Shown: positions 2,905 through 24,024, counted from the stretch's first letter. The stretch: 34,770 nt of DNA from Thiomicrospira sp. (GCF_014859555.1 NZ_JACUTY010000017.1:1-34770), one strand, 5' to 3'. The notes: generated by a model from the letters alone, not told the origin. Numbers and translations are program-made.

Positions 2905-3324
2905 TTATTTCCATGGGTTAATGAGATGCAGGCCGAGTATTGATTCAAAATCTTTTGTATTGCGCGTCACTAAAGTGAGTTGATGGGTTAGCGCTATCGC
3001 GGCAATTTGGGCATCTTCAACACTCGTCGGCAAACCTTGCTTACGTCGCTGAACTATTACATCCGCATAATGTTTAGCCGCTCGATTATCGAAATCGAGA
3101 CAACGCCCCATAAAGTCTTTGCCAAACATGTCCAGCGCTTTTAGAGTTAAAAGGGTTTTGCGTTTGCCATCGTCTAATAAACCTAAACCCAGTAAAATTT
3201 CTGCTTGGCTAATAGAGGCAAGATAGAGTGTAGAGAGGCTTTGCGCATCTAACCAATCTACAACTTTGGCGGATGGGTTAGGGCGCATAAACTCGGAAAG
3301 TACATTGGTATCGAGTAGGTACAT
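2905..3324 (-). CDS. PIN-domain toxin, VapC/FitB type
   Basis: A 139-residue PIN-domain protein, predicted to be a Mg-dependent ribonuclease. The acidic active-site residues are all present: Asp5 (LLDTNVLSE), Glu42 (QAEI), Asp104 (SVEDAQIAA) and Asp125 (NTKDF). The N-terminal DTNVLSE and the C-terminal LVTRNTKDF motifs are typical of FitB-like toxins. It follows the antitoxin gene by 17 bp in the usual antitoxin-first order. The catalytic set is intact, so this is not an obvious relic. The ribosome binding site is weak, which fits translational coupling to the antitoxin. It ends 13 bp before the nth start. Confidence 0.93.
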   Translation of the reverse strand: MYLLDTNVLSEFMRPNPSAKVVDWLDAQSLSTLYLASISQAEILLGLGLLDDGKRKTLLTLKALDMFGKDFMGRCLDFDNRAAKHYADVIVQRRKQGLPTSVEDAQIAAIALTHQLTLVTRNTKDFESILGLHLINPWK

Positions 3325-3780: not shown

Positions 3781-4488
3781 TTAGTTACTCGTTTGTACTT
3801 CAACCGGAATATTCACCAGGCCTGGTTTTTTGAGTTTTTGGTCGGCATAGTTTTTTAGCGCAATCAGCAAACCTAAACCGATAAACGCACCCGGCGGTAA
3901 AATCGCTAGCAATACGGGTGTGTAATCTGCACTTAGATGCAACGTCCAACCTCGTGCGGTTTCGCCGAATAACAACCAGGCCTGGTCGAATAACGTACCA
4001 TTACCAACCAACTCGCGCAGACTGCCCAAAATGACCAATACGACCGTGAAACCGATACCAATAAACAACGCATCGACAATTGATTTATCTAATGAATTTT
4101 TGGAGGCAAACGATTCGGCGCGCGCTAAGATCGCGCAGTTGGTGACAATTAAGGGGATAAATATGCCTAAAATCCCATGCAGGGTATAAAAATAGGCGTG
4201 CATGAGCATATCAATAATGGTGACGGCGGCGGCGATAATCGCAATAAATACCGGAATCCGAATTTCACTTGGCACCCAATGGCGGATCAACGAAACCAAA
4301 ATATTCGAGGTCATCAAAACGGCCATGGTAGCCAAACCCAGGCCGAGTCCGTTGACGCTGTTATTGGTGACCGCAAGTAACGGGCATAAACCGAGCAGGG
4401 CGACCAAGGCTTGGTTGTTGTTCCACAGACCTTTTTGTGCAATGTCTTGGTAATCGCGCCAGGTTTGGTTAATAGATGATTTAGTCAT
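3781..4488 (-). CDS. rsxE: Electron transport complex subunit RsxE/RnfE
   Basis: An integral membrane subunit of the Rsx/Rnf complex, which couples NADH-ferredoxin-type electron transfer to ion transport or keeps SoxR reduced. I place the start at 4488 ([14 protein letters not shown]), giving 235 residues close to the E. coli length, because GAGGAA lies just upstream. A start at 4515 would overlap rsxG by 35 bp without need. Visible family features are [22 protein letters not shown] near the start, paired with RsxA, and about six hydrophobic helices. Translation is coupled to rsxG by an 8-bp overlap. Two iterated palindromes lie inside, encoding KPGLVNI and FDQAWLL. Confidence 0.96.
3815..3826. 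repeat. Iterated palindrome ACCAGGCCTGGT in rsxE
   Basis: Exact 12-mer near the 3' end of rsxE, read as Pro-Gly-Leu-Val. Confidence 0.9.
3975..3986. repeat. Iterated palindrome ACCAGGCCTGGT in rsxE
   Basis: Exact 12-mer, read as Asp-Gln-Ala-Trp in a loop between membrane helices. Confidence 0.9.
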
Positions 4489-5107
4489 ACAATTCCTCTG
4501 TGTGACGATTGACATAATCGAGTGTCAGTCTGACAGCGCCCACTACCGCACGTGGGGTGATGGTCGCGCCGGTAAATTGATCAAATTCACCTCGGTCCCG
4601 TTTAACGGCCCAGCGATTAGCGTTGTCTTCAGTTAGGCGCTTACCTTCAAAGCCTAAAATCCAATCATCTTTACGCAGTTCAATTTTATCGCCTAAGCCG
4701 GGGGTTTCACGGTGACTGACGACACGAACCCCGGCCACGCGGCCGTCATAAAATACGCCCACGATTAAACGAATTTCACCGTTGTAACCATTGGGTGCCA
4801 CGGTTTCGATTACTAAACCAGCCGGTTCGCCATTGAGGCGCGCGCGATAAACCATCATGGGGTCATGGCTGCCCAAATACTCAGGTTCGATCAGGGTTTT
4901 GGTGTCTTCAAGCAAGTTGTTGTCGTAAGCCGAAGCGGGCATTACTTGATTTAGCAACTGGTGCAAAGCCGTTTGTTCGGCTTGCGCAATTTTAGGTTGG
5001 GTAAACTCGTTAATCGCCATCAATAAAGCCACGCTAATCACCACAAATAAACTGAGCAAGCCGGCGGCACGCAACATGGTTTGTTTCAGTTTGAGTTCTG
5101 GTTTCAT
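4481..5107 (-). CDS. rsxG: Electron transport complex subunit RsxG/RnfG
   Basis: A 208-residue subunit with one N-terminal membrane helix (about residues 12-30) and a periplasmic FMN-binding domain. The covalent FMN attachment motif is visible as [15 protein letters not shown] near residue 180, where the Thr after GATI receives FMN through a phosphoester bond. [11 protein letters not shown]-type sequence (here [18 protein letters not shown]) is also family-typical. The start overlaps the rsxD stop by 4 bp (ATGA), indicating translational coupling. Confidence 0.97.
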
Positions 5108-6135
5108 CGAATATGCCCTAGCACGCGAGGTTGTGTGTAGCGATCAATCAGTGGCACCGCGATGTTCATTAATAAAATCGCGAAGGCAATCCCATCTGGG
5201 AATGCGCCCCAGTTACGAATAACATACACTAAAATACCAATGCTTGCGGCAAAAATTAGGCGACCCATCGGTGTGGTGCTGGAGCTAACCGGGTCGGTGA
5301 TAATGAAAAACGCCGCCAACATAGTGCCACCAAATAATAGGTGAAAACTGATAGGCGCATATAAAGCCGGATTGATCATATGGAATACCCACGCCATGAA
5401 AGCTAGCGCGCCCAAAAACCCGACCGGAAATTGCCAGCGAATGGTTCGAGTATAAAGTAGCCACAAACCACCGATTAAAAACGCTATATTAATCCAACCC
5501 CAAGCCGTCAGATTTAACCAACTGGATTCAAAATAGGTTGCTTGGAGCATGTCCTGGCTGGATAAGCCTTGTTGCAAGCCAGTTTGTAACGTGCTCAGTG
5601 GGGTCGCACCAGTAAAGCTGTCGATGGGCATATTGGGCATCACGCCAAAGAGAATATGGTTAAACGAATCCCAGAAACTCAGTGTGTAACCGGCCAAATC
5701 TTTTGGTAAAGTCCACTGCGTCATTTCAGCCGGAAATGAAATCAATAAAAACGCATAACCTAACATCGCTGGATTAAATGGGTTGTAACCTAATCCGCCA
5801 TAGAGGTGTTTGCCAAATACAAGCGCAAAGGCGCAGCCAGATACAATCACCCACCAAGGCGACTCGGGTGGAATACAAAACACTAGGCCTGTTACCGTAA
5901 TCAGGGCACTAAAGTCGGTGATGTTGGGCATAACCGGACGGTCACGCAGTTTAAGCATAACAAACTCAACCAATAGGGCGGTGGCCACCGCCAAAAACCA
6001 TTGAATGATAATGCCGTAGCCAAATAACATAATGTGGGCAAGTAACGCCGGAAATGCCGCCAGCTGAACTTGTAACATAATTTTTTGCACGGAACTGTTG
6101 TTGTGTGCAAATGGGGAGCTGCTAAAACGAGACAT
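5104..6135 (-). CDS. rsxD: Electron transport complex subunit RsxD/RnfD
   Basis: A 343-residue polytopic membrane protein of NqrB/RnfD type with eight or more hydrophobic helices. The covalent FMN site is seen in DSFTGATPLSTLQ near residue 177. KHLYGGLGYNPFNPAMLGYA and the C-terminal FPDGIAFAILLMNIAVPLID are characteristic. The start codon overlaps the rsxC stop by one base (TAATG), and its stop overlaps rsxG by 4 bp. Confidence 0.97.
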   Translation of the reverse strand: MSRFSSSPFAHNNSSVQKIMLQVQLAAFPALLAHIMLFGYGIIIQWFLAVATALLVEFVMLKLRDRPVMPNITDFSALITVTGLVFCIPPESPWWVIVSGCAFALVFGKHLYGGLGYNPFNPAMLGYAFLLISFPAEMTQWTLPKDLAGYTLSFWDSFNHILFGVMPNMPIDSFTGATPLSTLQTGLQQGLSSQDMLQATYFESSWLNLTAWGWINIAFLIGGLWLLYTRTIRWQFPVGFLGALAFMAWVFHMINPALYAPISFHLLFGGTMLAAFFIITDPVSSSTTPMGRLIFAASIGILVYVIRNWGAFPDGIAFAILLMNIAVPLIDRYTQPRVLGHIR

Positions 6136-8054
6136 TACTGGCTGGACTCCTGTTGGCGTTTTTTACGTTCCGCCGCCTTGGCTTTGGCTGCATCCATTGC
6201 GGCTTTGCGTTTGTCTTCAGCTGAAGCTGAATTAGACGGCGTATCCTCGACCGAGCTGGCTTGGGCTTGTTCGGTCAGGTTAGCTGGGGTTTCTGTACTG
6301 GCTGTTTTTTGAGCTTTCAGCGCGGCGGCTCGCGCTTTGGCGGCTTGCATGGCTGCTTGGCGTTTATCGTTCGCCGATTGGGCGGGTGCGGTTTCGGCCG
6401 GTTTTGAGTTGTCCTTTCTTGACGCTTTTTTGGCGGTAGCGTCCTTTTCATTAGCCGTGGTTTGGCTGGCTTTCTGGCGTGCTTTCGCCGCTTGAATGGC
6501 TTTTTCACGCGCACTTAGTTTGGGTGCATCGGCGGCTGTTTTTTCAACCTTCGGGGCATCGGCGGCTTGCTGTTTAACCGCGGCTTTTTTGGCGGCTAAC
6601 TTAGCCTCACGCTCGTGTTTATCACGTTCTAAGCGCGCTTCACGCGCATCAAAACGTTGTTTCGCGATTTCAGTTAATTTGGCTTGTTGTTTGATCTCAC
6701 GTATTTCGGCCTTGGCGTGACGATAATATTGCACCAGCGGAATATGACTGGGGCAAACAAATGAACAACAGCCACATTCAATGCAGTCGAATAGCTTTAG
6801 TTGCTCGGTTTTATCGTACTCATGCGCGCGTGCATGCCAGTAAAGTTGTTGGGGTAGCAGGCTAACCGGACAGGCTTCGGCACATTCGCCACAACGAATA
6901 CAGGCCATCGGTTCGTCTGACGTTTCAGGAGGATTTGCCAGGATGCAGTTGGTGGTTTTAATAACTGGAACATCATTATGTGCGACCGCAAAGCCCATCA
7001 TCGGGCCGCCCATTAAAAGCGGATAATTCAATTTTGGTTCGGGTTGCGCGAGTTCAACTAACTCATTAAACGGTGTGCCGAGTAGGGCTTCAATGTTATA
7101 AGGTTTTTTTAGTCCCATGCCGGATACGGTGACAAAACGCGAAATCAGTGGTTGACCAAGCTCAATGGCTTGCGTGATGGCGCGCAAGGTAGCGACGTTC
7201 ATCATGACCACACCAATATCAATACTGTGAAGTTGGCTGGGAATTTCTACGCCAATTAGTTCTTGCGTCAGTTGTTTTTGGCCACCCATTGGGTAAACGG
7301 TGGCGACTTCTTCAAGTCTAATTCGAGTGTCTTCACAAGCTTGGCGCATGGCTTCAATCGCCTGTGGTTTGTTGGTTTCAATGCCACAAATGACCTGCTC
7401 AACGTCAAATAATTCCGCCACAAATAAAGCCGCCCGCACGATTTCTGGCGCGTGGGTTTGCATTAATAGGTCGTCGCAGGTAATAAAGGGTTCGCACTCC
7501 GCTCCATTAATGATGAGGTGTTTAATTTTTTTAGGTTGATCCGGTAGTTTAGCAAAAGTAGGAAAACCCGCACCGCCCATGCCCACAATGCCAGCGTTGA
7601 GCAGCAGTTGTTTAAATTCGGCAATGGTTTTGGGTTTATGTGTGATGCCTAACGCGTTTTCAATCGCGTCTTGTTTCGCGTCCGGTTCAATCACTATGCA
7701 GGGTTCGGCTAGGCCTGAAGCGTGTGGCAAAATACGTTGTTCAATCGCGATAATTTTACCGGAGGCGGGGGCGTGAACTGGCGCACTTAACCCCTTAGCT
7801 GGCTGAGCGATCATTTGGAATTTTTTAACCTGCTCACCGACTTCTACACAAGGTAAAGCCGCCTCGCCCATATGCTGTTGTAAAGGCAAAATTAACTGTT
7901 TTGGCACATAGCTTGTGCGCAAGGGTTGGCGTAAAGATAGGCTTTTGTTGTACTTGGGAAATACACCGCCATGAAACTGGTGCAACCAACGTTTTGCCAT
8001 AGGGTAAATAGAGGCGATCAAATTAATCAATTTTTGATGTAAGCGGATGTTCAT
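6135..8054 (-). CDS. rsxC: Electron transport complex subunit RsxC/RnfC
   Basis: A 639-residue peripheral subunit that is the likely NADH entry point. In order: an N-terminal barrel-sandwich domain (about 40-110), a flavin/NADH-binding region with GMGGAGFPTFAKL (about 155-167), an SLBB-like segment, and two [4Fe-4S] motifs, CIRCGECAEACP (about 383-394) and CIECGCCSFVCP (about 421-432). The last 190 residues are an Ala/Lys/Gln-rich charged tail with three imperfect copies of a unit like DKRxAAMxAAKAKAAxxK, a length-variable helical extension also seen in other gammaproteobacterial RsxC proteins. The start overlaps rsxB by 4 bp. Confidence 0.97.
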   Translation of the reverse strand: MNIRLHQKLINLIASIYPMAKRWLHQFHGGVFPKYNKSLSLRQPLRTSYVPKQLILPLQQHMGEAALPCVEVGEQVKKFQMIAQPAKGLSAPVHAPASGKIIAIEQRILPHASGLAEPCIVIEPDAKQDAIENALGITHKPKTIAEFKQLLLNAGIVGMGGAGFPTFAKLPDQPKKIKHLIINGAECEPFITCDDLLMQTHAPEIVRAALFVAELFDVEQVICGIETNKPQAIEAMRQACEDTRIRLEEVATVYPMGGQKQLTQELIGVEIPSQLHSIDIGVVMMNVATLRAITQAIELGQPLISRFVTVSGMGLKKPYNIEALLGTPFNELVELAQPEPKLNYPLLMGGPMMGFAVAHNDVPVIKTTNCILANPPETSDEPMACIRCGECAEACPVSLLPQQLYWHARAHEYDKTEQLKLFDCIECGCCSFVCPSHIPLVQYYRHAKAEIREIKQQAKLTEIAKQRFDAREARLERDKHEREAKLAAKKAAVKQQAADAPKVEKTAADAPKLSAREKAIQAAKARQKASQTTANEKDATAKKASRKDNSKPAETAPAQSANDKRQAAMQAAKARAAALKAQKTASTETPANLTEQAQASSVEDTPSNSASAEDKRKAAMDAAKAKAAERKKRQQESSQ

Positions 8055-8608
8055 TCAGTGCGCTCCGCAGCGGCTTTGGGTTCGGGCCATTTCCAGTTTT
8101 TTAAATTGGGTTTTTCCATCACCATATCAATGCAATCCACTGGGCAAACTGGCACGCAAAGTTCGCAACCAGTGCATTCTTTTTCGATTACGGTATGCAT
8201 CATTTTGGTGGTGCCGATAATCGCATCGACTGGACAAGCTTTAATGCACAACACGCAACCTATACAAATATCCTCATCAATCACGGCTAGCATTTTAGGC
8301 TTAGGTTCGGTGGCTTCGGCTTGCATGGGTTTGGGTTCGACTTGAAGAATCTCAGCAATTTCAATCATGGTGGGTTCACCACCTGGAATACACAAGTTGA
8401 CTTCGGCTTCGCCTTTCGCCAGCGCTTCAGCATAAGGTTTGCAACCTGGGTAACCGCACTGGCCACACTGGGTCTGGGGTAGTTTTTTGTCGATAATTTC
8501 TGCCAGCGGATTGCCTTCGATGCGAAAACGCACCGCGGCATATCCCAGCAATAAGCCAAATGCTAGGGCTAAACCTAGGAAGATTAGGATTCCAGCGAAC
8601 ATGCTCAT
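8051..8608 (-). CDS. rsxB: Electron transport complex subunit RsxB/RnfB
   Basis: A 185-residue iron-sulfur subunit. It has one N-terminal membrane helix (residues 4-27), a [4Fe-4S] region starting at Cys48 (CGQCGYPGCKPYA plus a later Cys in NLC), and two ferredoxin-type motifs, CIGCVLCIKACP and CTGCELCVPVCP. It would relay electrons between RsxC and the membrane subunits. The stop of rsxA and the start of rsxB are immediately adjacent. Confidence 0.97.
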   Translation of the reverse strand: MSMFAGILIFLGLALAFGLLLGYAAVRFRIEGNPLAEIIDKKLPQTQCGQCGYPGCKPYAEALAKGEAEVNLCIPGGEPTMIEIAEILQVEPKPMQAEATEPKPKMLAVIDEDICIGCVLCIKACPVDAIIGTTKMMHTVIEKECTGCELCVPVCPVDCIDMVMEKPNLKNWKWPEPKAAAERTE

Positions 8609-9184
8609 TTAAACCAACCCACCAAAGCCCATAAAGGCTAACGACATAAGTCCGGCGGTGATTAAAGCGATAGGCGCACCTTTGAATGGCATGGGCACAT
8701 CACCGGCATCGACGCGTTCACGAATCGAAGCAAATAACACCATGACCATTGTGAAGCCGATGGCCGCGCCAAAGCCATAAAAGGCGGATTCGATAAAGTT
8801 GTGGTCTTCGCCAATGTTGAGTAAGGCCACGCCTAAAACCGCGCAATTGGTCGTGATTAATGGCAGATAAATACCCAACACTTGGTAAAGCGCGGGGCTG
8901 GATTTGTGAATCGCCATTTCGGTAAAGCCCACTACCGCGGCAATTGATAGAATAAAACCGATGGTTTTAAGATATTCCAGTTCAAAAGGCGCGAGTAGGT
9001 AGGTGTAAAGCAGATAACTCATGACTGATGATAGCGTAAGCACAAAGGTGGTAGCTAACCCCATGCCTAAAGCGGCATCGAGTTTTTTGGACACACCCAT
9101 AAACGGGCACAAGCCTAAAAATTTGACCAGCACAAAATTATTCACCAAAACGGTGCTAATTAAAATAATGACGTAATCGGTCAT
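8609..9184 (-). CDS. rsxA: Electron transport complex subunit RsxA/RnfA
   Basis: A 191-residue membrane subunit with six predicted helices, homologous to Rsx[23 protein letters not shown] near the N-terminus and [16 protein letters not shown] mid-protein are the conserved half-helix elements that hold the membrane-embedded iron-sulfur centre. It is the first gene of the rsxABCDGE operon, whose genes overlap or abut throughout. The ribosome binding site is AAAGAG about 7 nt upstream. The preceding 130 bp hold an imperfect long inverted repeat but no clear promoter, so read-through from metG is possible. Confidence 0.97.
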
Positions 9185-19941: not shown

Positions 19942-20457
19942 ATGGAATGTCGTAAAAACAGCACTGGGTTTATGGGTTTTTTATTTATGATAGCGTTGAG
20001 TTTAATGACGACCTTGGCTCAAGCCGAACCCCAAGATATCGAGTTTGTAGATTTAGAAGGTAAAAACGTCAATTTGTCTGACTTTAGAGGTCAGTGGGTA
20101 ATTGTGAATATTTGGGCGACCTGGTGTCCACCTTGCATCAAAGAAATGCCCGATCTAACGTTTTTTCACGAAAAATATAAAGATGACGGTGCGATTGTTC
20201 TGGGGGTGAATTATGAGAATATTGCGGTTGAGAAGATCAATAACTTTACCGAAGAGCTGATGATTACGTTCCCGATTGTGCGTTTTAAAGATATCGATTT
20301 AAACGCCAATAAAACGCCATTTGGCCCGTTACGTGGCTTACCCAGCACTTACATGGTGGCACCGAGTGGGCATATAGTGGCTGGGCGCGCTGGGCTAGTT
20401 GATCAAGAACTTCTAGAATCGTTTATAAAAGAATATGAGGCTAAAAATCCGCAATAA
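19942..20457 (+). CDS. TlpA-like periplasmic thioredoxin-family protein
   Basis: A 171-residue exported thioredoxin-fold protein. The N-terminal hydrophobic segment (about residues 9-27, ending TLAQA) is a signal peptide or anchor. The active site is WCPPC (residues 61-65) within NIWATWCPPCIKEMP, typical of TlpA/ResA-type thiol-disulfide reductases. The cis-Pro appears in GLPSTYMV. Central NLSDFRGQWVIVN is the usual AhpC/TSA-like strand. AAGGGAAG lies just upstream. Substrate is unknown; partners may be the SoxW-like protein or exported Cys proteins. Confidence 0.92.
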   Translation: MECRKNSTGFMGFLFMIALSLMTTLAQAEPQDIEFVDLEGKNVNLSDFRGQWVIVNIWATWCPPCIKEMPDLTFFHEKYKDDGAIVLGVNYENIAVEKINNFTEELMITFPIVRFKDIDLNANKTPFGPLRGLPSTYMVAPSGHIVAGRAGLVDQELLESFIKEYEAKNPQ

Positions 20458-20466
20458 AACACGGGG

Positions 20467-20496
20467 TTGAAGCCTTGAAAACGTTTCCGGTATGAT
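20467..20496 (+). promoter_or_regulatory. Promoter upstream of the SoxW-like/TolC operon
   Basis: TTGAAG (20467-20472) and TATGAT (20491-20496) are separated by 18 bp, giving a leader of about 26 nt before the ATG at 20529 with AAGGAGAGAGG as a strong ribosome binding site. Confidence 0.65.
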
Positions 20497-20528
20497 AATG
20501 AAATTGGATACATCTCAAGGAGAGAGGT

Positions 20529-21041
20529 ATGAAACATTTCGCACTAGGCTTTGCCTTTTTGTTGGTGGGCTTGTCTGCGCCCAGCTGGGCAGCCGAGTTT
20601 TTTGATCAAAGTTTTGGTAACTTTGAGGAAGAGGCAAAGTACGCGCGAGATGAAGGTAAACTCGGCGTGTTTGTGTTTTTCGAAATGGATGATTGCCCCT
20701 TTTGTCATCGAATGAAAGAAACGATTTTGATCGAGCCGGACGTGGTTGAGTATTTTAACCAGCACTTTAAAGCCTATCGCTTTGATATAGAAGGCTCGAG
20801 CCCGGTGGTGGATTTTGACGGCACCGAGTATGCCACCGGTCAAGAGATGGCTGTAAAAAAGTATCGTGTACGTGCCACCCCTGTGATGATTATGTTTGAT
20901 AACGATGGCCAAGTTATAGCGCGCTATACCGGGCCGGCCACCACCAAAGAAGAATTTTTGATGTGGGGTGAATTTGCGGTGAGTGGCGAATATAAAAACA
21001 TGCCATTTACGCGTTACAAACGTGCACAAACGCAACAATAG
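20529..21041 (+). CDS. SoxW-like periplasmic thioredoxin
   Basis: A 170-residue exported protein with signal peptide (MKHFALGFAFLLVGLSAPSWA). Active-site cysteines C56 and C59 are in FFEMDDCPFCHRMKE, the CxxC context of SoxW/DsbD-gamma-like thioredoxins. The cis-Pro is in VRATPVMIMF. The spacing EPDVVEYFNQHFKAYRFDIEG is typical of the thioredoxin_2/SoxW group. SoxW proteins keep Sox sulfur-oxidation components reduced, but no sox genes are in this window. It is followed by the TolC-like gene after 10 bp, so an operon is likely. Confidence 0.88.
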   Translation: MKHFALGFAFLLVGLSAPSWAAEFFDQSFGNFEEEAKYARDEGKLGVFVFFEMDDCPFCHRMKETILIEPDVVEYFNQHFKAYRFDIEGSSPVVDFDGTEYATGQEMAVKKYRVRATPVMIMFDNDGQVIARYTGPATTKEEFLMWGEFAVSGEYKNMPFTRYKRAQTQQ

Positions 21042-21051
21042 CGGATTGACT

Positions 21052-22356
21052 ATGAAGCGACTTAACTTTTTAGGCCTGTTATTTATCTGTGCGTGGAGTA
21101 GCAGTTATGCCGAACAGGAACCTTTACCGACGCCGTTAACGTTGGATTATGTGCTTGATTTGCCCACCTCGATGAGCCCGGAAGTGATGCGCCAGCAAGC
21201 TCGGTTGCTCCAAGCTCAGGGCCATCGAGCCGAACTTAATGCCCAAGATCGTGTGCAGTTTGATTTGCAAGCTCGATTGGGTAAACGCGAGTTTATGGGG
21301 GAGGGTCAAGATTATAATATGGCCGCGTTGCATATGGGTTTACCCCTGTATGACTTTGGTCGTACCGCCAATCAAGACCAGGCCTGGTTGTGGGACACGA
21401 AAGCCCGTCAATATCAGCTGCAAGCCATCGAAAAACAATTTCGGCTGGATTTAATGCAAGCTTATTTTAATGTTTTGTTGGCCGATATACATTACCGCGT
21501 TGAGAATGAGGCGATGGCGATTGCCTATGTCACCTTAGACAAGGTGCAAGAAAACCATGAAATCGGACGTGAGTCAGATGCCAATTTGTATGCCTCTGAA
21601 GAGTCGTACCAAAAAGCCTTTGTGAAACGCCAACAAGCCCAGGCCAACTTGCGTCGATCTCGGATGTTGTTGGCTAATGCGATGGGGCGTTCCGATGCGG
21701 TTATTTCGCGAGTCAGTTTACCGGATTGGTCAAATCTGCCCGAAAAACTGTTGAAAGTTGAAGATTATTTAGCGCTGGCGTTGGATCATAACCCGCAGGT
21801 TTTGGCGATGAAACAAGCTTTCGAAGCCAGTGGTTATAGGGTTGAGGGCGCGCGTGCCGGTAAACGCCCGGAAATTCGTGCGGATGCTTGGATTGGACAG
21901 TTGTCGAGTTATCCTGATGTGCGCGAAGGTCATTATCATGCTGAAGTTTCGATCAATGTGCCTTTGTATGATGGTGGGCTAACCAAATCGAGAGTGGATC
22001 GTGAGCGGGCGCAGCGCCAACAGATTCAAGCGAATTTATATCAAGCTCAGCAACAAATTCGTGAGCAAGTCACCAATTTATACTTCGAGTTAAGTTTATT
22101 GGATGTTGAAAAACAAGCGGTGCAAGCCGGTCAAACCTTTGCGGATTTCAACTTAGATTACAAACGCGCAATTTATGAAAATGAATTGCAGGCGGATTTA
22201 GGTGATGCGATGGTTAGAATTTCGCAAGCACATTACGATGCTTTGGCATTTGATTTAAAGCGCGCCTTATTATGGGCCAAGATGCAGGCTTTAACCGGGC
22301 AGGATGATTTGTCCGAGGCCAAGATCTCTCAGCAAACAAACATGCCCTTGGAGTAA
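21052..22356 (+). CDS. TolC-family outer-membrane channel
   Basis: A 434-residue protein. The start is placed at 21052 (MKRLNFLGLLFICAWSSSYA), which gives a signal peptide and begins just after the preceding stop; a longer frame from 20983 would overlap it by about 60 bp. It shows the twofold TolC plan: long Gln/Ala/Arg-rich helices (about 45-75, 100-185) with YFNVLLADIHYRVENEA, then the repeat (about 250-410) with LAVNVPLYDGG-like VSINVPLYDGGLTKSRVDRERAQ and NLYFELSLLDVEKQAV. It should form the outer-membrane/periplasmic tunnel of an export complex. The iterated palindrome encodes DQAWL. Confidence 0.93.
   Translation: MKRLNFLGLLFICAWSSSYAEQEPLPTPLTLDYVLDLPTSMSPEVMRQQARLLQAQGHRAELNAQDRVQFDLQARLGKREFMGEGQDYNMAALHMGLPLYDFGRTANQDQAWLWDTKARQYQLQAIEKQFRLDLMQAYFNVLLADIHYRVENEAMAIAYVTLDKVQENHEIGRESDANLYASEESYQKAFVKRQQAQANLRRSRMLLANAMGRSDAVISRVSLPDWSNLPEKLLKVEDYLALALDHNPQVLAMKQAFEASGYRVEGARAGKRPEIRADAWIGQLSSYPDVREGHYHAEVSINVPLYDGGLTKSRVDRERAQRQQIQANLYQAQQQIREQVTNLYFELSLLDVEKQAVQAGQTFADFNLDYKRAIYENELQADLGDAMVRISQAHYDALAFDLKRALLWAKMQALTGQDDLSEAKISQQTNMPLE
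21377..21388. repeat. Iterated palindrome ACCAGGCCTGGT in the TolC-like gene
   Basis: Exact 12-mer, read as Asp-Gln-Ala-Trp-Leu. Confidence 0.9.
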
Positions 22357-22359
22357 CAC

Positions 22360-22854
22360 ATGATTAAACCTATTATATTGGTGCTGGCCAGTTCACTAAT
22401 CGCCTTGAGCAGTCAGGCTGCCGAAGTAAAAGTGGGCGCATTGGTAACGGGTCAAGTAACTCAGGTTATGGTGAAAACAGGTCAACAGGTTAAAGCTGGG
22501 GATCTGGTTTTAAAAATTGATGATCGGCGTTACCAGGCAAAGTTAAAAGCTTTGCAAGCCGAAGTGGCTTATCGAGAAACCGCTTTGGCCGACATGAAAA
22601 TAGAGTTTGACCAAACCCAAGATTTATATGATCGTACGGTAATTGCACGTCGCCCATACGAGCGCGCTAAAACGGATTTTGAGCTGGCGCAAAACGCGTT
22701 GGCCAAAGCACAAGCCGAACTGGAAATGCACCAGGCCTGGTTGGATTATTATGAGGTTAAAGCACCAGTAGCGGGCGCAGTCAAAATGGTTGTAACGCAA
22801 GGTTCAACCGTATTTAAAGAAAATGATGCTTTATTTAGTTTAGAGGTTAAATAA
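22360..22854 (+). CDS. Minimal periplasmic membrane-fusion (HlyD/RND-adaptor-like) protein
   Basis: A 164-residue protein with a signal peptide ending SSQA. It contains the two halves of a biotinyl-lipoyl domain, GQVTQVMVKTGQQVKAGDLVLKID (about 29-52) and YYEVKAPVAGAVKMVVTQG (about 128-146). They flank a coiled-coil hairpin (about 57-125, rich in Ala/Lys/Glu/Gln). The usual beta-barrel and membrane-proximal domains of adaptors (normally 300 residues or more) are absent, although the stop is clean and the next gene overlaps (TAATG). It starts 4 bp after the TolC-like stop. A palindrome at 22730-22741 encodes HQAWL. Confidence 0.88.
   Translation: MIKPIILVLASSLIALSSQAAEVKVGALVTGQVTQVMVKTGQQVKAGDLVLKIDDRRYQAKLKALQAEVAYRETALADMKIEFDQTQDLYDRTVIARRPYERAKTDFELAQNALAKAQAELEMHQAWLDYYEVKAPVAGAVKMVVTQGSTVFKENDALFSLEVK
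22730..22741. repeat. Iterated palindrome ACCAGGCCTGGT in the adaptor gene
   Basis: Exact 12-mer, read as His-Gln-Ala-Trp-Leu at the end of the coiled-coil hairpin. Confidence 0.9.
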
Positions 22855-23126
22855 TGTCGACGTTAAAAACGCAATGGCAATATGGCGTAAAGTATTGGCG
22901 TTTAGCAATTCACCTGACGTTTAAAACCCGTCATTTTGGGGTTAATAATCAATGGTGGGCACGTCAGCCTTCGGTCATTGGTTGGAGTTGGTATCAAATT
23001 TTATGGGGCATAATTACTATCATGCCAATTGTGCGTAATGTGCAGTCCATGAAAGTACGCAGCTGTATTGGTTGGATTCCACAGTCTGAATGTGACGCGC
23101 TGGGATTTTCACGTCAAAAAGACTAG
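22854..23126 (+). CDS. Trp-rich small protein, possible membrane protein
   Basis: A 90-residue protein I do not recognise. It has eight Trp residues and a hydrophobic segment about 43-60 (GWSWYQILWGIITIMPIV) that could be one membrane helix, with basic flanks. Two Cys in the tail (SCIGWIPQSECDALG) might be redox-active. The start overlaps the adaptor stop (TAATG), a strong sign of translational coupling, which is the main support for it being real. It could be an inner-membrane anchor for the soluble adaptor; that is speculation. Confidence 0.65.
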   Translation: MSTLKTQWQYGVKYWRLAIHLTFKTRHFGVNNQWWARQPSVIGWSWYQILWGIITIMPIVRNVQSMKVRSCIGWIPQSECDALGFSRQKD

Positions 23127-23187: not shown

Positions 23188-24024
23188 ATGTCAGAACAGC
23201 GACAGTCCTCTCGATTTTCTCGTCAGTTTTTAGTTACCGATTATCAGGATGAACACTTTGAACTGGCTTTTGAGGGTTGGGATGTCAATTTAACGGGTTT
23301 AAGTTTTTGGGTAAATGACCCAGATTTGTTTATGCCGGGGCAGATTCTAACGTTACGTGTTAAAGCCGAAGATACCGCTGAAATGTATGCGTTGGATAGT
23401 GTTGAAGTGGTACATTTGCAAGAACGAGATGGGCTGATTTTATGCGGTTGCCATATTGCTCAAGTCACCAGTGATCAATTATTGGCGCATCATCGTTTGG
23501 TTATGCTAAACGAAGCGGCCGCTAGCCAGTCCATGTCTGATTCTGAATTGCGTGAGTTTGATTTTAATCAAACTGGTTCAAGTCTGTCTTTTCAGCCGGC
23601 CGATTATCAGCAAGCCAGTTTTGCGCTTAATTTGGCAGTAGAGGAGTTGACCGGTGGCGTGCAGTCGGATGAAACCAGCTGGGAAACGCTTCACAATGGC
23701 TTAGAGGATTTGCTTAGTGAGGTGGAACAAGATCAGCAACAACAGGTTTTGTCGTTAATTGCCGGTTTTAAGCGTTTTCACCTGTCGCAAGAGTCGCGTA
23801 ATGAGCAGGTGTTGGCACTCAGTTTATTGGCCAAAATGTTGGTTCACACGCCACAGACGGAAGCGGATCGCTTGTCATGGCAAACCTTGTTGCGCGATTT
23901 TGAAACGCGCTTTTTAGATGAACGTTTATTGTTGGCGTATGATTTGATGCATCAAGGTTTGGAAGCGGGCGAAGCCTTGCAGCGAGCCACCGATCAATTG
24001 ACGCTGGAGAAGGAGCCATTCTAG
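23188..24024 (+). CDS. PilZ-like domain protein with helical C-terminal region
   Basis: A 278-residue cytoplasmic protein. Residues 1-110 resemble a PilZ c-di-GMP-binding barrel: R5-xxx-R9 (RQSSR) near the start, then DVNLTG (residues 32-37), matching (D/N)xSxxG except Asn34 replaces Ser. The remaining 160 residues are predicted helical, Gln/Glu/Leu-rich (EVEQDQQQQVLSLIAGF), of no family I recognise. AAAGG precedes the ATG. The Asn change could weaken c-di-GMP binding, so it may be a degenerate or altered PilZ receptor. Confidence 0.75.
   Translation: MSEQRQSSRFSRQFLVTDYQDEHFELAFEGWDVNLTGLSFWVNDPDLFMPGQILTLRVKAEDTAEMYALDSVEVVHLQERDGLILCGCHIAQVTSDQLLAHHRLVMLNEAAASQSMSDSELREFDFNQTGSSLSFQPADYQQASFALNLAVEELTGGVQSDETSWETLHNGLEDLLSEVEQDQQQQVLSLIAGFKRFHLSQESRNEQVLALSLLAKMLVHTPQTEADRLSWQTLLRDFETRFLDERLLLAYDLMHQGLEAGEALQRATDQLTLEKEPF

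Follow-up and report, generated by a model that had tools for sequence, protein, structure and literature searches.

Gene content of the locus

The window analysed here is a stretch of 34,770 nucleotides from Thiomicrospira sp. (GCF_014859555.1, NZ_JACUTY010000017.1:1-34770). Our subject is a run of five genes within it, at positions 19942-23126, that encode two exported thioredoxin-fold proteins, a TolC-family channel, a small periplasmic adaptor and a 90-residue protein, ORF90 (Table 1). TolC channels are generally assumed to depend on an energised transporter of the inner membrane, which they reach through the beta-barrel and membrane-proximal parts of the adaptor. An earlier note on this DNA, made from the sequence alone, had described the five frames as overlapping or abutting, and their coordinates, strand and gaps agree with that description. 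The genes run head to tail on one strand, with 71 nucleotides between the TlpA-like gene and the CPFC thioredoxin, 10 between the thioredoxin and TolC, and three between TolC and the adaptor; adaptor and ORF90 overlap by one nucleotide (TAATG). We take TolC to start at the ATG at 21052, an alternative GTG at 20983 (457 amino acids) being less likely, and its two PF02321 stretches above the gathering score correspond to tandem OEP repeats. The TlpA-like protein scores 73 bits against PF00578 (cut-off 26) and carries its WCPPC site behind a signal-peptide-like N terminus.

Table 1. Genes of the locus, in window coordinates (aa, amino acids)
Feature	Coordinates	Strand	Evidence
TlpA/ResA-like exported thiol-disulfide oxidoreductase (WCPPC)	19942..20457	+	AhpC-TSA 2.4e-20; ResA model 1.1e-25, below cut-off
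Exported Thioredoxin_2-family protein, active site CPFC	20529..21041	+	PF13098 1.4e-18
TolC-family outer-membrane channel, 434 aa	21052..22356	+	PF02321 (OEP) 4.5e-27; TIGR01844 1.1e-27, below cut-off
Mini periplasmic adaptor, 164 aa: signal peptide, lipoyl half, alpha-hairpin, lipoyl half	22360..22854	+	Pfam lipoyl/HlyD; TIGR01730 18-165/322
ORF90, Trp-rich basic 90-aa protein	22854..23126	+	No Pfam match; 60/63 family genomes
PilZ-like protein, usual ORF90 neighbour, context only	23188..24024	+	PF07238 E 0.02, below cut-off

An adaptor reduced to its lipoyl-hairpin half

In the window's lineage the adaptor is reduced to its lipoyl-hairpin half, as the earlier note had proposed. It aligns to TIGR01730 (RND_mfp) over positions 18-165 of 322 only, while full-length adaptors encoded elsewhere in the same genome cover positions 1-320. 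Its AlphaFold model (mean predicted local distance difference test, pLDDT, 92.4) consists of a signal peptide, the lipoyl strands and a hairpin of two ~37-residue helices (56-92 and 94-130), with nothing further. The lipoyl (barrel-sandwich) domain is indicated by Pfam matches (Biotin_lipoyl and HlyD_3), by the model and by fold matches. The chain stops at the second lipoyl half, so that there is no beta-barrel; the extent of the TIGR01730 match leaves no membrane-proximal domain either, and apart from the signal peptide the protein has no membrane anchor. Residues 20-164 share the fold of the TIGR01730 RND/ABC adaptors AcrA, MacA and MexA and superpose on their lipoyl-hairpin part (VIA Z up to 15.6; against AcrA and MacA of 4dk0, Foldseek TM on query 0.75-0.82 and VIA Z about 14-15.6). 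Unlike these proteins, the window adaptor has no barrel, no membrane-proximal domain, neither the R nor the S of the RLS motif, and no adjacent pump. An adaptor search of 398 Pseudomonadota genomes returned, at E 1e-22 or better, only matches of at least 271 amino acids, the window itself excepted. To our knowledge, the adaptor of the window's lineage is the smallest known.

The reduced form is stable across genera. We sampled 63 genomes of one family, the only one sampled from the window's order, which we take to be Thiomicrospirales (the window genome is 2.1 Mb). The mini-adaptor is found in 51 of these, scoring 177-248 bits with a profile of the mini form, where long adaptors reach about 101 bits at most, and its length stays within 151-179 amino acids (40 family loci plus two, L009 and L010, from outside the family). 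Ratios of nonsynonymous to synonymous substitution (dN/dS) far below 1 indicate strong purifying selection on all five genes; between the window and G058, for instance, dN and dS are 0.059 and 1.57 for the adaptor and 0.067 and 0.90 for ORF90. The mini-adaptor has invariant residues of its own (D78, R98, Y130 and E154), and CPFC and an ATPV motif are invariant across 17 aligned thioredoxins.

Comparison with relatives outside the family, described below, suggests what has been lost. In 33 of 34 outside loci the adaptor runs 67-93 residues past the end of the window adaptor; this extension lies in the HlyD_3 match, and the RND_mfp match reaches positions 229-244 of 322. From its profile position rather than from a structure, we infer that the extension is the beta-barrel. 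No outside form checked has a membrane-proximal domain, the TIGR01730 match ending at those same positions. The alignment also shows the mini form to be without about a dozen residues ahead of the first lipoyl half. At the remaining locus (L182, genome G170) the adaptor has 158 amino acids and no extension, and since G170 branches far from the family in a tree of thioredoxin plus TolC, the barrel seems to have been lost twice, once in the clade of the window's family and once in G170. At the hairpin tip, the R of the RLS motif is replaced by Q in 36 of 43 mini-adaptors and the S by A in 34 of 43, the L being kept; among outside relatives, 91% keep the R and 82% the S.

Loss of whole adaptor domains has precedents. 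EmrA, an adaptor of MFS transporters, has no membrane-proximal domain (PMC4158417, PMC4446572), a modular loss of the inner-membrane-facing part like that seen here, and the outside adaptors resemble the EmrA state (PMC4158417). EmrA, however, retains its barrel and serves EmrB, whereas the mini-adaptor has neither a barrel nor a linked transporter. BesA of Borrelia has lost its hairpin, which illustrates that adaptors can lose entire domains (PMC4446572; adaptor-domain variation is also reviewed in PMC8277102); it is thus without the TolC-facing part and has a pump, BesB, whereas the mini-adaptor is without the opposite half and has no linked pump. In these reviews, and within the open-access literature to which our search was limited, we found no adaptor reduced to the lipoyl-hairpin part.

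Thioredoxin, TolC and adaptor form one unit

The earlier note had treated all five genes as coupled. Part of this stands: thioredoxin, TolC and adaptor behave as one unit, from which ORF90 is separable. Of the 63 family genomes, 62 carry thioredoxin and adaptor together or lack the two together (Fisher p 5e-12); 12 of the 63 are without the triad. The lone exception, G035, is an incomplete genome in which just part of a thioredoxin is present, on a different contig. In one genus (g3) the three genes have been relocated together, leaving TlpA, ORF90 and the PilZ-like gene at the purM-DUF2066-Hda locus. Two metagenome-assembled genomes of other gammaproteobacteria carry the triad with neither TlpA nor ORF90 (L009, 4174-6498; L010, 4199-6498). 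In a concatenated tree this triad is nested with full support in the window's own genus, and we therefore conclude that the three genes were transferred together horizontally. On the strength of co-occurrence, joint relocation and joint transfer, the functional unit is thioredoxin-TolC-adaptor, with ORF90 a mere neighbour. TlpA likewise remains where the triad is gone, though it is part of the wider operon; in seven loci read from triad-less genomes, ORF90 directly follows TlpA. No member of the operon was found on the plasmids searched.

Several of the relocated g3 units lie beside genes resembling ectoine and aspartokinase genes. In several g3 genomes a protein of ~290 amino acids with TPR repeats and a hydrophobic stretch is encoded directly upstream of the relocated unit (L047, 4666-5547; L050, 5012-5884; L077, 10553-11458), itself behind those ectoine- and aspartokinase-like genes.

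ORF90

ORF90 is present in 60 of the 63 family genomes at 60%-90% identity, with 28 invariant columns among 28 sequences, a conservation above that of the adaptor or TolC. This rules out a spurious frame: by its conservation ORF90 is a real and strongly conserved protein. It is basic and Trp-rich, with one marginal hydrophobic stretch (42-60), and matches nothing in Pfam, NCBIfam, PHROGs or PDB. Its AlphaFold model is mostly helical and, at pLDDT 61.7, too poor for a fold search.

We found no support for the earlier suggestion that this protein anchors the adaptor in the membrane. ORF90 is kept in nine of the 12 family genomes that have no adaptor, lies far from the adaptor in g3, and is absent beside the L009 and L010 triads. 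With ORF90 beside TlpA where there is no triad, and triads elsewhere without ORF90, an anchoring role is unlikely. A mini-adaptor followed by ORF90 also occurs in G119, a genome of another family. The usual neighbours of ORF90 are TlpA and the PilZ-like gene, which adjoins it in most loci; in G109 (L097) it stands without any of these genes.

An operon spread through the Gammaproteobacteria

When 369 genomes of the class were searched with the thioredoxin alignment, about 95 proved to have close relatives (E <1e-35), and from these we sampled 40 loci outside the family. In 34 of them thioredoxin, TolC and adaptor are encoded one after another, in this order and co-directionally, and in 24 of the 34 the thioredoxin is preceded by a TlpA-like gene. 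An acylphosphatase gene follows in 22 outside loci and DsbD in four, and a gene for a DUF1223 protein precedes in three. In some of these loci, as in the window, Hda or proS is encoded no more than about 7 kb away, so the position of the operon is probably ancestral.

The absence of an adjacent pump, claimed for the window in the earlier note, extends to its relatives. At 82 loci the 7 kb around the thioredoxin gave no tblastn match to any of three queries, CusA for RND pumps, a MacB-type permease and an ABC ATPase (MFS transporters were not scanned). None of the neighbours identified, among them acylphosphatase, proS, T2SSE, DsbD and DUF1223, is a transporter. Judging by gene order across the class, then, the gene set is an ancient gammaproteobacterial operon, (TlpA)-thioredoxin(CPFC)-TolC-adaptor, whose missing pump is ancestral and not a product of decay. 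We had also considered thioredoxin-TolC-adaptor as a mobile cassette that had entered between TlpA and ORF90, and dropped the idea in view of the upstream TlpA in 24 of 34 outside loci and the nearby Hda or proS in some; an ancestral operon position with later losses and one relocation is probably the better account. We found no description of this operon in a search limited to open-access papers, and this widespread bacterial gene set has apparently gone undescribed.

Thiol chemistry

Like TlpA/ResA and the DsbH/SoxW-like periplasmic thioredoxins, the two proteins of the window are exported thioredoxin folds, with WCPPC and CPFC sites; unlike them, they are encoded in an operon with TolC and an adaptor. 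Neither reaches an NCBIfam cut-off: the DsbH disulfide reductase model NF043050 gives 31.6 bits against a cut-off of 190 bits, and no model matched for SoxW, the periplasmic thioredoxin of the Sox cluster, which SoxV reduces. The mature adaptor is free of cysteine in 43 of 43 sequences, and 41 of 43 TolC sequences have none either; the thioredoxin therefore probably acts on a substrate other than its two partners. Neighbouring genes in outside loci, DsbD and DUF1223 (the latter a protein of thioredoxin-like fold), point to thiol redox. The four DsbD genes follow the adaptor gene in the same orientation (L169, 4017-6732; L168, L175 and L189), hinting at an electron supply for the thioredoxins of the operon.

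A Sox link by way of SoxC was considered and rejected, SoxC being present in 11 of the 12 triad-less genomes and thus not tracking the triad. In G005, unlike the other SoxC-bearing family genomes, SoxC is split into two frames (G005:C1:170820-172074).

A possible exit from the periplasm without a dedicated pump

The window carries the Thiomicrospirales form of this pumpless operon, and we tentatively propose, as the likeliest of the readings, that it may encode a port made of adaptor and TolC for a cargo handled by thioredoxins. The adaptor, as a soluble ring or sleeve in the periplasm, would dock on TolC at its periplasmic end and would hold the channel, or open it, towards the periplasm. The cargo, a periplasmic thiol, a disulfide or a thiol-bound molecule, would be acted on by the two thioredoxin-fold proteins and would leave by way of TolC, with no inner-membrane transporter dedicated to it. 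In ordinary adaptors the barrel sits towards the inner membrane; under this scheme it could be spared, which fits its loss both in this lineage and in G170, a distant branch. ORF90 and the PilZ-like gene would be adjoining genes with a different role. It is conceivable, if somewhat doubtful, that the same holds for the class as a whole, with TolC, an adaptor deprived of its pump-docking part and a pair of thioredoxins, by which the cargo is prepared or reduced, providing a pump-independent way out of the periplasm, the adaptor being at its smallest here. Several observations weigh against such a port. We know of no driving force for uphill export through a TolC without an energised partner, and no gene of the operon supplies energy. 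The RLS motif, the usual TolC-docking tip, is altered in the mini-adaptor, and we therefore only infer that adaptor and TolC dock. The window genome also encodes other full-length adaptors and RND genes, so that a pump could be supplied from elsewhere.

That last point leads to the most serious rival, an ordinary tripartite exporter whose ABC, MFS or RND transporter is encoded at another place in the genome, which we consider doubtful but well within reach. Unlinked partners are, as a matter of general knowledge, common for TolC. The outside adaptors, moreover, keep the barrel and are without only the membrane-proximal domain, like the MFS-serving EmrA (PMC4158417, PMC4446572). Yet the membrane-proximal domain is found in no form checked, the mini form is without the barrel as well, and despite relocation and transfer none of the 82 loci has a pump added to the operon. 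Adaptor and TolC might instead export no cargo at all, with the adaptor a putative TolC-associated scaffold that holds the thioredoxins in place at the outer membrane or else controls the gating of TolC. The inseparability of thioredoxin and adaptor across the family would fit such an arrangement, as would the fact that adaptor and TolC offer the thioredoxin no cysteines; all the same, we think it unlikely.

That the window's lineage carries the decaying remains of a former pump operon was rejected as highly improbable. The missing barrel, present in outside loci, and the loss of thioredoxin and adaptor from 12 of 63 family genomes could be read in its favour, but all genes are under strong purifying selection, adaptor length varies little across genera, and the three-gene unit was transferred intact. 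According to the earlier note, such decay would show in relatives that have the adaptor at full length and a pump next to it: a longer adaptor, predicted to bear the barrel, does occur outside the family, but those relatives have no RND or ABC pump near the operon either.

An operon conserved with no pump alongside, in which strong selection accompanied what seem to be two losses of the pump-facing part, would let nature show how much the TolC-facing half of an adaptor can do by itself. The operon, as traced by its thioredoxin, occurs in roughly a quarter of the gammaproteobacterial genomes sampled and has so far gone unnamed; it may hint at a route across the outer membrane that bypasses the usual three-part exporter.

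Other genes in the window

Away from the operon, two features were recognised by eye, both on the minus strand: genes resembling an Rnf/Rsx electron-transport cluster at 3781-9184, and a PIN-domain-like (VapC-type) frame at 2905-3324.

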